From SAR324 cluster bacterium (GTDB lineage Bacteria > SAR324 > NAC60-12), in assembly GCA_022448485.1 (NCBI GenBank), contig JAKUUI010000009.1, positions 1 through 53,078 on the forward strand: a stretch of 53,078 bases of DNA. Direction: 5' to 3'. Shown piece after piece: positions 10,293-35,906 of this stretch. How positions within the stretch are numbered: position 1 is the stretch's first letter; every line of letters begins with the position of its first letter. The notes beneath the pieces are model-generated. The model saw only the letters and a list, made by a program, of their open reading frames with translations, ran no database searches and was not told the DNA's origin. A program made the position numbers and the translations under genes.

Positions 10293-11933
10293 TTAAACTT
10301 GTTTGTCTTCCTGACGTTGTTCGGCATTTAAACGGCCGAGGGAATATTCGTTCAAATCGACAAATTTGATATATTTCGCCAGGAGAGGTTGTGCTGTCTC
10401 AACTTTCCTGAACATTTCCTGCGCAATCCGTCGATATCCACTATGACCCTGCGGAGTACTGCGAAGCTCCGTCAACCAAACCAGGGCCCGCAAATTGATG
10501 TGGACATACCATCGAATATTGTAACTCATCGGTACAACATATTGAGCTTCAATGGGAAAATCCTTGGCTATCGTTTCAAAGGCTTCTGCAGATCGTGCCA
10601 TTGTTTCATGGTATTCTGCGCCTAAACCTGCATCTTCAATTTCATCCGGCGTATCATAACCAAAACGCGTCGTTAGCGGCTGACGTTCCTGAGTGAGCAT
10701 CCTGTGCCTCTGTAAGTCACGGTACATACCATAATCACCCAAAATATCAAAGGTATAGAATGCCATCTCCAATCCACGTTCAGGTTTATGGCGTCGGTGA
10801 TTACGCAAAGCTACTGCCTGCTCAATCAGTCTTGTTTTTTCGGAATCTGACATTCTACGTACACGTTCCTGTATTTGCAACAACGGTAAATCTGAGTGGG
10901 AGTAAAGCAATGCGGCCAAGAGTTTTGTTTCTGCTTCCGGATCAAAATCGATCAAGCGGACCGTTTCCGTCGTCTCGGCTTTCAATTGTCCAAGGTGCTT
11001 TGCAGCAAAATTACGAACAAGTTTCTGTTGTACCAGACTGAAATTCCTGAAATCTTGAAAGTGCTTGTGTTCCGCTTCAGCACGCCGGACAAAAGAAGGA
11101 ATCACTTTTGCTAATTCTTCATAGGCAACTCGTCCAATTTCATTCAGCTCAACAAACGGCTCGGTCCTCAATTTCATAATCAGTGTTTCAAAAAAACGCC
11201 CGTTGCCAAAAACTCCCATGTTAGTCAAAGTTGCGGCAGGCAGCAAACCGCGTATGATGTCAAATCCGCGAGCCCGAACGGATCTCTCGTAAGCGGCTTG
11301 GCTGGTTTTCGGTTCGTGAGGTAACTGCTTCCGGACATGTTCCCGAATTGGTACGGTGAAACGGACGTAGGTTTCAAATAAGTTCCGGCAAGTCGATAAA
11401 TACAAATCGCAGTGTGCAGATTTCAGCAAAGTTGGTTCTTGATAATACCCGAATTCGTCATTCGCACTGGAAGTTCCGGTTATTTTTTCTGCAAAACTGA
11501 CATAACGCGTCGATTTTTCAAGGGGCGACCCTCCGATTCGTGCATCTTCCAGAGTTTTGGTGGCCAAAATGGAAATATTTTCCAGCGCTAAATGTGCTCC
11601 GCCAAGTTCACCGATCGAATCGTCACCATAGCCGTCAAGAATCCTGTCATAAAACTTTTGTGCAGATTCGATGGCCAGTTCAGTGTTTTTGGCAAAATCC
11701 GGATGTTTTCCACCACCTTGAATTTCTGTAAACCTGGATTCCTTTTCCTGAATAAAATCTCGGAGCAGTAAAGTACGAAGTCCGAGTGTTGAGCGTGAAT
11801 AGCGGGAAAAAAGAGCTCCTTTGATCACTTCCGGTAGATTGGTAAGTGCAAAAATAGAACGGTTTGTATTGGTGACGTACAAAGATAGTATCTTCTTCTC
11901 AACAGGTGTGAAAACTTCGTTAAAGGTGCTCAT
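10293..11933 (-). CDS. thyX: Two-domain ThyX-like flavin-dependent thymidylate synthase
   Basis: ThyX methylates dUMP to dTMP with methylene-THF and FAD. At 546 residues this protein is about twice the classical length. Two ThyX-like segments are seen: SPLEKSTRYV at 136-145, which keeps the E-x-S-x-R-Y part of the motif, and RHRMLTQERQPLTTRF at 409-424, which keeps RHR but has Thr where Ser is usual. The protein looks like an internal duplication with motif parts split between halves. It follows nuoI by 9 bp and ends upstream of upp, so it sits with nucleotide metabolism. Membership is fairly sure; activity is not proven. Confidence 0.8.
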   Translation of the reverse strand: MSTFNEVFTPVEKKILSLYVTNTNRSIFALTNLPEVIKGALFSRYSRSTLGLRTLLLRDFIQEKESRFTEIQGGGKHPDFAKNTELAIESAQKFYDRILDGYGDDSIGELGGAHLALENISILATKTLEDARIGGSPLEKSTRYVSFAEKITGTSSANDEFGYYQEPTLLKSAHCDLYLSTCRNLFETYVRFTVPIREHVRKQLPHEPKTSQAAYERSVRARGFDIIRGLLPAATLTNMGVFGNGRFFETLIMKLRTEPFVELNEIGRVAYEELAKVIPSFVRRAEAEHKHFQDFRNFSLVQQKLVRNFAAKHLGQLKAETTETVRLIDFDPEAETKLLAALLYSHSDLPLLQIQERVRRMSDSEKTRLIEQAVALRNHRRHKPERGLEMAFYTFDILGDYGMYRDLQRHRMLTQERQPLTTRFGYDTPDEIEDAGLGAEYHETMARSAEAFETIAKDFPIEAQYVVPMSYNIRWYVHINLRALVWLTELRSTPQGHSGYRRIAQEMFRKVETAQPLLAKYIKFVDLNEYSLGRLNAEQRQEDKQV

Positions 11934-29925: not shown

Positions 29926-30177
29926 GCTCATTCACATGAAATGTGAAACAAGATATTTACGGAAATCTTTTCCTTCTTTCATAGGTCTATCACCAGTAAC
30001 TAAGCAAGGTACCGTTTCATTTCCAGTCAGTTCTGCCAGCTCTTTTGCATAGTCCGGATTCACAAGGATATCCTTGAATGTTAATTTATTCTTTATTTTT
30101 AGATTTGAAATCGTATTGAGAACAATCTGAGAATATTCACAGTCTTCATGAAAATAAAGTTCTATCATCAACATTAG
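29844..30177. repeat. Left copy of a ~330-bp duplication (ilvH 3' end plus glutaredoxin gene)
   Basis: This segment and the one at 34918-35245 align end to end in the same orientation. Each has the last codons of ilvH, the ilvH stop, the shared palindrome around TTCACATGAAATGTGAA, and then a convergent glutaredoxin-like gene. Similarity stops just outside the glutaredoxin start. The two copies bracket the oxyR-to-rhodanese genes. Confidence 0.8.
29932..30174 (-). CDS. Glutaredoxin-like small redox protein, CxxS variant
   Basis: Thioredoxin-fold protein of about 80 residues. It has a beta-alpha start ELYFHEDCEYS, a cis-Pro segment NETVPCLVTG and a C-terminal helix, as in GrxC/NrdH-size glutaredoxins. 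The active site reads C-E-Y-S: the second cysteine is replaced by serine, as in monothiol types. Its paralogue at 35006 keeps C-E-Y-C. Counted by eye, 64 of 78 residues are identical. The ribosome binding region ahead of this copy is poor. It may be specialised or decaying. Confidence 0.7.
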   Translation of the reverse strand: MLMIELYFHEDCEYSQIVLNTISNLKIKNKLTFKDILVNPDYAKELAELTGNETVPCLVTGDRPMKEGKDFRKYLVSHFM

Positions 30178-30391: not shown

Positions 30392-31327
30392 TTATTTTAC
30401 TGGAAGAATCTCTACTGCTTCTTTGGTTGAAAATTCTTTTTGAGTGATGCTTTGGATCGAAACAGCCAATTTTTGGAAACACACTTTTCTCGTGTAAGTT
30501 TCCCGAAATAATAATCCGACTCTTCTTGCCGGTGCTGGTTCATTAAACGGAATGTATTTGATAGAAGAATTTTGAATTAAATTTTTATAATCAATTGCAG
30601 TTTGAGGAATTAGTGTAATACCAATTCCTGCGGAAACCATATGTCTAATTGTTTCTAAACTTGTACCTCGGAAATCTTTTCTTTCTTTGGTCATAGCATC
30701 TGAGCAAACATCAAGAGCTTGCCCTCTCAAACAATGACCATCTTCAAGCAAAAGTAAAGTTTCACCATGCAAATCCTCTTTTTTGATTGATAATTTGGAA
30801 GCAAATGGATGTTGACTGTTAGTGGCCACATAAAATGGCTCAGTGTATAAAATAATCTCTTCAAGTCCAGTCATTTCTATCGGGGTAGCTAAGATTCCCG
30901 CATCCAATGTTCCTTCACTAAGTTTATTCAACATTACTTCTGTTTGAACTTCATGTAAGATGATTTCTAGTTGAGGATATGTTTGATTTATAGGCTCCAC
31001 TATCAGTGGCAAAAGATAAGGGGCTATTGTTGGAATTAGACCAATATTGACTGTACCATTCATCGGATCTGAATAGGTTGTAACCATATTTTCTATAGAA
31101 GCCACATCAGCTAAAATTGTCCGTGATATTTTTACAATTTCTTCACCAATGGGGGTTAAAAAGACATACCTAGTGGTACGTTCTACCAGTTGAACTCCCA
31201 TGTATGCTTCTAATTTTTTTAGTTGTCCACTCAAAGTAGGTTGGCTTACAAAACATTTCTCTGCAGCTTTTCGAAAATGTTTTAATTCGCCAATAGCTAC
31301 AAGATATTCCAAATCTCTCAAATTCAT
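30392..31327 (-). CDS. oxyR: Peroxide-sensing LysR-family regulator OxyR
   Basis: Transcription factor activated by peroxide through a disulfide. From ATG 31327 (GGAG seven bases before; an in-frame TTG one codon upstream is rejected) the product has 311 residues. It has an N-terminal LysR helix-turn-helix (MNLRDLEYLVAIGELKHFRK onward) and a substrate-binding domain. The redox segment EDGHCLRGQALDVC places cysteines at residues 199 and 208, the same numbers as in E. coli OxyR. It diverges from the rubrerythrin gene with a matching operator between them, so autoregulation is likely. Confidence 0.92.
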   Translation of the reverse strand: MNLRDLEYLVAIGELKHFRKAAEKCFVSQPTLSGQLKKLEAYMGVQLVERTTRYVFLTPIGEEIVKISRTILADVASIENMVTTYSDPMNGTVNIGLIPTIAPYLLPLIVEPINQTYPQLEIILHEVQTEVMLNKLSEGTLDAGILATPIEMTGLEEIILYTEPFYVATNSQHPFASKLSIKKEDLHGETLLLLEDGHCLRGQALDVCSDAMTKERKDFRGTSLETIRHMVSAGIGITLIPQTAIDYKNLIQNSSIKYIPFNEPAPARRVGLLFRETYTRKVCFQKLAVSIQSITQKEFSTKEAVEILPVK

Positions 31328-31363
31328 CAAACACTCCTCAAATCAATGGGCTAATTTGTATTA

Positions 31364-31518: not shown

Positions 31519-31938
31519 ATGAGTAATTTGAATGGCACAAAAACTCACGAAAACCTTAAAGCTGCTTTTGCTGGAGAATCTCAAGCAAATAGACGCTATC
31601 TTTATTTTGCAAAAGTCGCTGACATCGAGGGTTATCCTGAGATAGCAAGCAATTTTCGTGAAACCGCAGAAGGAGAAACTGGGCACGCTCATGGGCATTT
31701 AGATTATTTGAAAGAGGTTGGTGATCCTGCAACAGGTTTACCTATTGGAGATACTCTAGATAATTTAAAAGCCGCAGTAGCTGGTGAAACACATGAATAC
31801 ACAGACATGTATCCAGGCATGGCCAAAACCGCTCGAGAAGACGGTTTTGCTGAGATTGCTGATTGGTTTGAGACATTGGCAAAAGCAGAAAAATCGCATG
31901 CAGGTCGATTTCAACAAATGGCAGATAGCGTTTCTTGA
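31519..31938 (+). CDS. Short rubrerythrin (diiron domain only)
   Basis: Rubrerythrins reduce hydrogen peroxide at a diiron site. The 139-residue product is a four-helix ferritin-like protein with the ligand motifs [37 protein letters not shown] and EKSHAGRF. It ends there: the C-terminal rubredoxin domain with its CxxC pairs is absent, so electrons must come from a partner. AAGGAG lies eight bases before the ATG. It is divergent from oxyR, shares its operator, and is followed by a strong terminator and then an Fe-S oxidoreductase gene. Confidence 0.93.
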
Positions 31939-35005: not shown

Positions 35006-35242
35006 TCACATGAAATGTGAAACGAGATATTTCCGTATATCATTTGCTTCTTTCATTGGTCCATCATCAGTAACTAAACAAGGTACAGTTTCATTTCCAG
35101 TCAGTTCTGCCAGCTCTTTCGCATAGTCCGGATTCACGCGGATATCCTTGTATGTAAATTTATCCTTTATTTTTGAATTTGTAATCGTATTGAGCACAAT
35201 CTGACAATATTCACAGTCTTCATAAAAATAAAGTTCCATCAT
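35006..35242 (-). CDS. Glutaredoxin-like small redox protein, CxxC form
   Basis: 78-residue thioredoxin-fold protein with ELYFYEDCEYC at the start (cysteines 10 and 13), the cis-Pro segment NETVPCLV near residue 55 and a C-terminal helix ending KYLVSHFM. A dithiol active site makes it a candidate reductant for protein disulfides, mixed disulfides or the neighbouring peroxiredoxin, whose gene lies just upstream on the same strand. A terminator separates the two. It is the paralogue of the CxxS copy at 29932. Confidence 0.8.
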   Translation of the reverse strand: MMELYFYEDCEYCQIVLNTITNSKIKDKFTYKDIRVNPDYAKELAELTGNETVPCLVTDDGPMKEANDIRKYLVSHFM

Positions 35243-35264: not shown

Positions 35265-35294
35265 AAAAAAAAGGCGGTCCACAAAGAGACCGCC
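35265..35294 (-). terminator. Intrinsic terminator after the peroxiredoxin gene
   Basis: On the minus strand a perfect GGCGGTC/GACCGCC stem (35294-35288 with 35279-35273) with an eight-base loop is followed directly by eight T. It lies about 30 bases after the peroxiredoxin stop and before the glutaredoxin gene. Confidence 0.85.
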
Positions 35295-35324: not shown

Positions 35325-35783
35325 TTATCCGTTTACTTTTTGGCACTCGGCTAAAAGCTCAGAAATATTACGCTCTCCGTTTGCCATAACGGAATATTGA
35401 ACTGAGCCTTGCTTGTCAACAATAACCGTTGCTCGTGCTGTGTATCCTTTATTCTCCAAATAAACCCCATAAGAAGTCGCCATGGCGCCTTTTGGATGGT
35501 AATCCTGTAGGAGTGGGTAGGACACACCACCAAGGGAATTAGCCCAATTATAATGTGACTGTTTACTGTCTATGCTAACACCCAAAACTTGAGTGTCTGC
35601 GGCTTTGAATTGTTCAATCTTCGATTCAATCCCGGGTATTTCTTTGCTTCAAGTGGATGTCCAATCTTTCGGGTAAAACACCAGCATCACATTCTTTGTT
35701 CCCTTGAATTGACTTAAGGTAAACTCCGTATCAAACTGGCTATCCAATTTAAAATCCGGGGCCTGTGATCCAACTGCAATCAT
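35325..35783 (-). CDS. Peroxiredoxin, probable selenoprotein with in-frame TGA at the peroxidatic position
   Basis: Reduces hydroperoxides. The frame from ATG 35783 (strong GGAGG five bases before) to TAA 35325 is 153 codons. It has one internal TGA, at 35651-35649, codon 45. Before it the product reads VGSQAPDFKLD and LVFYPKDWTST; after it SKEIPGIESKI, GVSIDSKQSHYNWA and HPKGAMATSYGVY. In AhpC/TSA peroxiredoxins the D-W-T-x-x position 45 is the peroxidatic cysteine. The TGA therefore replaces exactly the catalytic residue, the hallmark of selenocysteine. A second cysteine lies at 147. No other stop or frameshift is present. A one-base pseudogene is the alternative. Confidence 0.8.
35601..35633 (-). 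promoter_or_regulatory. Candidate bacterial SECIS element after the peroxiredoxin TGA
   Basis: Twenty bases after the TGA a stem UUGAAU/AUUCAA (35629-35624 with 35610-35605) closes a 13-base loop that begins C-G. The loop starts 26 bases past the stop. A three-pair lower helix can form below a 2x2 internal loop. A guanine in the first two loop positions and a loop at about 16-37 bases are the known bacterial SECIS constraints. Drawn by hand; not energy-checked. Confidence 0.45.
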
Positions 35784-35906
35784 TCATACCTCCTATGAAT
35801 TAATTAAAAAACCTTCAAAAGCGACATGATCTCAGAGTACACAAAACTGTGTCTGTATACCAAAATAATCTAGCAGCTCTTAGCAAACAAATTTTTTGAC
35901 CAAATC

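Follow-up and report, generated by a model that had tools for sequence, protein, structure and literature searches.

A peroxiredoxin gene interrupted by a single in-frame TGA

The locus was analysed within a window of 53,078 nucleotides (the whole stretch of DNA under study), which belongs to a SAR324 metagenome-assembled genome of 2.70 Mb in 246 contigs that is 86.9% complete. On the minus strand, positions 35,325 to 35,783 hold a peroxiredoxin gene that runs from an ATG to a TAA and encodes 152 residues. An AGGAGG ribosome binding site lies upstream of the ATG (35,784 to 35,795, minus strand). The frame is free of lesions other than a lone TGA at codon 45 (35,649 to 35,651, minus strand), where translation gives the context YPKDWTST(TGA)SKEIPG. 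The gene is followed by an intrinsic terminator with an 8-bp stem and a T tract (35,273 to 35,294, minus strand) and then by a glutaredoxin-like gene (35,006 to 35,242, minus strand). An initial annotation of this DNA had described a single-TGA frame with a ribosome binding site, a start and a stop, all of which are present; the 153 codons that it counted are 152 codons and a stop.

The same annotation had anticipated that a pipeline would split off a short fragment starting at 35,585. A mechanical ORF caller indeed keeps 35,325 to 35,585 alone, giving an 86-residue piece with a TTG start at 35,585. When the TGA is read through, the protein matches the Pfam AhpC-TSA family (PF00578) over residues 4 to 130, across the TGA, with a score of 122.8 bits (E = 1e-35; cut-off 26 bits).

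The whole window was then scanned in six frames for reading frames joined by a single TGA and not buried under a long ORF. Six such frames were recovered, among which the peroxiredoxin is the sole recognisable protein created by read-through; the scan of the window yielded no further credible selenoprotein gene, and Rfam and ARAGORN found no RNA genes within it. The scan for read-through frames bears on the possibility that TGA has been reassigned throughout the genome, for example to tryptophan or cysteine, with selenium not involved. No support was found for such a change. TGA serves as the stop codon of ordinary genes in the window, the two glutaredoxin-like genes described below included, only one credible read-through frame is present, and tRNA-Sec and selB occur in the lineage. 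The normal TGA stops rule out genome-wide reassignment, to which we attach a negligible probability.

The TGA occupies the peroxidatic position of an AhpE-like protein

The read-through protein possesses a PxxxTxxU pocket formed by P38, T42 and U45, and U45 aligns with Cys45 of Mycobacterium tuberculosis AhpE, in agreement with the initial placement of the TGA at the catalytic cysteine of AhpC/TSA peroxiredoxins. T42 and R117 are invariant in the aligned orthologues, and Cys147, the lone other cysteine of the window peroxiredoxin, is found in 15 of 16.

The protein had also been termed PrxU-type. The best NCBIfam match is the PrxU model NF040737, but the score of 83.9 bits falls below the cut-off of 270, so that the term applies in a loose sense only; the nearest solved structures are those of the 1-Cys peroxiredoxin AhpE (1xxu and 1xvw; 93 bits by single sequence and 126 bits by profile). 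PrxU was described from Eubacterium acidaminophilum (Sohling et al. 2001, as cited in PMC13188914). Both are selenocysteine peroxiredoxins, although the SAR324 protein is much shorter than the 233-position NF040737 model. The resemblance to AhpE extends to length (153 residues in AhpE, 152 here), to a peroxidatic residue at position 45 in both and to the lack in both of a C-terminal extension of the Prx1/Prx6 type. The two differ in that the SAR324 enzyme would carry selenocysteine where AhpE has cysteine, and in the conserved Cys147 of the former, which may resolve.

A small tree left the placement of the SAR324 peroxiredoxin with AhpE without firm support. Since the tree does not settle the subfamily, we name the protein AhpE-like rather than AhpE. 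AlphaFold gave a model with a middling pLDDT of 77.5, and a fold search with it returned many peroxiredoxins with AhpE among the top few; the model adds little beyond the sequence. A literature search combining AhpE with selenocysteine returned no title or abstract describing a selenocysteine-containing AhpE.

Selenocysteine peroxiredoxins with a TxxU motif were reported from the Sargasso Sea in 2005 (43 sequences; PMC1088965) and from the GOS data in 2008 (253 sequences; PMC2398784), and selenocysteine peroxiredoxins appear in the current selenoprotein list (PMC13188914). The marine sequences (PF00578/COG1225) are known as family counts, and the likeness drawn here from their descriptions consists of the AhpC/TSA fold, selenocysteine at TxxU/PxxxTxxU and an origin in marine bacteria. 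The SAR324 gene belongs to this kind of selenoprotein, known since 2005, and introduces no new principle.

The TGA is conserved and the sequence beyond it is under purifying selection

Homologues were sought in 98 genomes. Close full-length matches numbered 18 in 17 genomes, the window included, and every one of the 18 contains one TGA; those outside the window are 61 to 83% identical to it. Across 16 distinct orthologues, which span genus, family and class, the TGA falls in the same alignment column in all 16 and is never replaced by TAA, TAG, a cysteine codon or any other codon. No cysteine orthologue was found in the 98 genomes searched. Two SAR324 genomes came up in a scan of public genomes, and codon 45 is TGA in each of them.

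Comparison of the window copy with each orthologue gave pN/pS values of 0.19 to 0.34 downstream of the TGA. Such low values indicate that protein is made beyond this codon. A nonsense mutation or sequencing error in an ordinary cysteine peroxiredoxin could be entertained on the grounds that TGA is one base from the cysteine codons TGC and TGT and that the source is a metagenome assembly. Seventeen independently assembled genomes, with copies as distant as 61% identity, nevertheless share this TGA, the downstream sequence is under strong purifying selection and there is no second lesion. Conservation of the TGA together with purifying selection rules out a pseudogene, and the chance that the codon is an accident is very small. 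The initial annotation had named close relatives with cysteine, coupled with other decay in this copy, as the finding that would count against it; neither was seen.

The remaining homologue matches, at or below about 44% identity, are other peroxiredoxins, and those that were translated have cysteine at the site with one exception. This is a distant peroxiredoxin of about 37% identity from the same order (genome G038, C194:4167-4604; L043), which possesses a TGA at the peroxidatic position (PLAFTGGU) and reads as a separate selenocysteine peroxiredoxin. A partial, diverged copy in genome G023 (C154; L036) keeps the TGA and goes out of frame beyond residue 84 or so, either through decay or through an assembly error, and was excluded from most analyses. 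Seven genomes of the same genus as the window (G001, G006, G007, G009, G010, G012 and G014) gave no close peroxiredoxin match, through either loss of the gene or gaps in assembly; most of them have selA, selB and selD.

An RNA folding signal is strongest at the TGA

A bacterial SECIS hairpin would be expected in the 48 nt from the TGA (35,604 to 35,651, minus strand). Folding of 48-nt segments was compared with that of synonymous recodings. The excess was strongest (mean z -1.83) in the segment whose first codon is the TGA, amounted to -1.21 at codon -24 and was near zero from codon +24 onward, the z values being mutually dependent as the sequences are related. Individual copies ranged from -0.3 to -3.9, with eight of the 16 reaching -2 to -3.9. 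The window's own copy gave -0.6, and its SECIS candidate was no better than synonymous shuffles, 29.5% of which reach it.

In several members of the genus a hairpin, UUGARUCGAU-GAUUG-AUCGAUUCAA, lies approximately 22 to 47 nt from the selenocysteine codon. Its loop starts with G, as is expected of bacterial SECIS elements. When the proposed 10-bp helix was counted on the alignment, 76% of cells were paired, with little covariation. RNAalifold found no common structure among 17 homologues because the register of the hairpin differs between genera. Codon choice at two positions after the TGA also stands out: Ser46 is encoded by AGC in all 15 copies that have serine, unlike the codon usage of the family, and Phe59 by TTC in 15 of 16 copies, though TTT is the commoner phenylalanine codon in the family.

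Selenocysteine machinery in the lineage and in the genome of the window

Matches above cut-off were obtained in SAR324-group genomes for selA (42 of 51), selB (47 of 51), selD (43 of 51) and the tRNA-Sec model (41 of 51), a few of the last, just above the cut-off, probably being tRNA-Ser. ARAGORN confirmed a tRNA-SeC with anticodon TCA in all six genomes checked. Selenocysteine at the peroxidatic position of the SAR324 peroxiredoxin family is thus strongly supported, given the conservation of the TGA, the purifying selection beyond it, the RNA signal at the TGA and a selenocysteine system in the lineage.

For the window's own genome, the initial annotation had set its reading against a search for sel genes, with a lack of selC and selB as the adverse outcome. 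The result is divided: selB and selD are present, selA is absent and selC is represented by a 5' half alone. The selB gene is intact (C2:26351-28237; 378.7 bits). The selD gene (C166:240-1163; L090) has a UGA of its own, in frame within the motif TCGUAAK, and is probably a second selenoprotein gene of this genome. No selA was found in this 87%-complete assembly, while genus mates possess it, and a DNA search of the assembly for the selA region, run without a control, was empty. Searches with the genes that neighbour selA returned only a 39% paralogue for rng and no match for the adjacent lipoprotein gene. As both are missing along with selA, the whole selA block is probably unassembled.

No intact selC was found in the same assembly, and the matches to the tRNA-Sec model were rejected as tRNA-Ser, tRNA-Leu and others. 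Contig C201 runs colinear with the selC region in genus mates as far as the middle of selC, whose 5' half survives over about 43 nt (native locus C201:12300-12487; L105). This remnant has substitutions in the acceptor stem and an anticodon changed from TCA to TTA, after which the sequence diverges for the 145 nt that remain to the contig end; ARAGORN and Rfam found no tRNA in the fragment. The half-gene may reflect actual decay, insertion of an element or an assembly break. Within the genus, selC is intact in eight of 17 genomes. In G010 the final 24 nt of selC recur at two additional places (C22:4041-4064, L123, and 10332-10355, L122), a pattern that insertion of mobile elements at selC would produce; these repeated 3' ends, together with variable downstream flanks, suggest that the selC site is an integration hotspot in the genus.

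The family might accordingly be a true selenoprotein in a strain that has recently lost selenocysteine decoding, so that its copy now stops at the TGA and yields a 44-residue fragment. The altered acceptor stem and anticodon of the selC remnant, when eight genus mates are intact, are consistent with this, as are the absence of selA and the weak local SECIS candidate. However, the selC break lies next to a contig end at a hotspot-like site, where assemblies tend to break, and the loss of rng and the lipoprotein gene together with selA fits an assembly gap. Furthermore, selB is intact, selD has kept its UGA and the peroxiredoxin has evolved at a normal rate (end branch of 0.089 for the window copy against a median of 0.084). 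We therefore consider recent loss in this strain unlikely. A slightly smaller chance is given to the related notion that a SAR324 lineage has been caught losing selenocysteine decoding, with the UGA genes and selB still intact and the enzymes orphaned or decoded otherwise. With neither selA nor a complete selC in the assembly, selenocysteine insertion in the window's own strain is judged likely rather than proven.

A glutaredoxin-like neighbour in a peroxide-defence island

The glutaredoxin-like gene lies directly downstream of the peroxiredoxin gene in nine of 13 inspected genomes and is absent from that position in the other four. In three genomes from other genera the gap between the two genes is only about 10 bp; in the genus of the window a terminator separates them, similar ones being present in genus mates. 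The active site reads CEYC in the window copy; most relatives have CEYS or CGFS instead. The best NCBIfam match of this neighbour is the Uxx-star family of glutaredoxin-like (seleno)proteins (NF041212), but its 34 bits fall below the cut-off of 66, and all copies seen have cysteine, not selenocysteine. A similar gene with CEYS (29,932 to 30,174, minus strand) is located at the opposite end of the island, and the two are likely the products of a duplication.

Between them, in what the initial annotation had called an OxyR-controlled island, lie genes for an OxyR-type LysR regulator (30,392 to 31,330, minus strand; 329.0 bits against NF008361, cut-off 329) and a rubrerythrin-family protein (31,519 to 31,938, plus strand). 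The island also holds an Fe-S oxidoreductase, a DUF3501 protein and a rhodanese.

The reductant of AhpE is a glutaredoxin-like mycoredoxin, according to a review of the work of Hugo et al. (2014) (PMC4360819). By analogy, the protein encoded next to the SAR324 peroxiredoxin is a plausible candidate for its reductant; the terminator that parts the two genes in this genus and the four genomes with no such neighbour count against the pairing.

Discussion

Taken as a whole, we favour, with a probability of roughly 0.93, the explanation that the locus encodes a SAR324 selenoperoxiredoxin in which UGA45 is decoded as selenocysteine and which reduces peroxides with a glutaredoxin-like protein as reductant. 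SelB and tRNA-Sec would decode the UGA, aided by an RNA hairpin in the roughly 48 nt that follow it; the signal of this hairpin is family-wide and weak in the window's copy. From what is known of the family, the selenolate of Sec45, held in a pocket with T42 and R117, would attack hydrogen peroxide or organic peroxides and be converted to a selenenic acid. The reductant of this acid would be a glutaredoxin-like protein, probably the CEYC/CEYS protein encoded next to the peroxiredoxin, just as mycoredoxin-1 reduces AhpE. Cys147 is possibly a resolving residue.

Selenocysteine in every close orthologue, with no cysteine version seen in the SAR324 genomes searched, suggests a stable requirement for selenium. 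Two SAR324 single-cell genomes were formerly listed only as orphan-SelD organisms in an ISME J survey of 2016 (PMC5029168), the one paper in the literature searched to mention SAR324 together with selenoproteins; most of the SAR324-group genomes analysed here carry selA, selB, selC and selD. Automated annotation would cut the enzyme to the 86-residue fragment and so hide both a probable peroxide-defence enzyme and the selenium dependence of an uncultured marine lineage.
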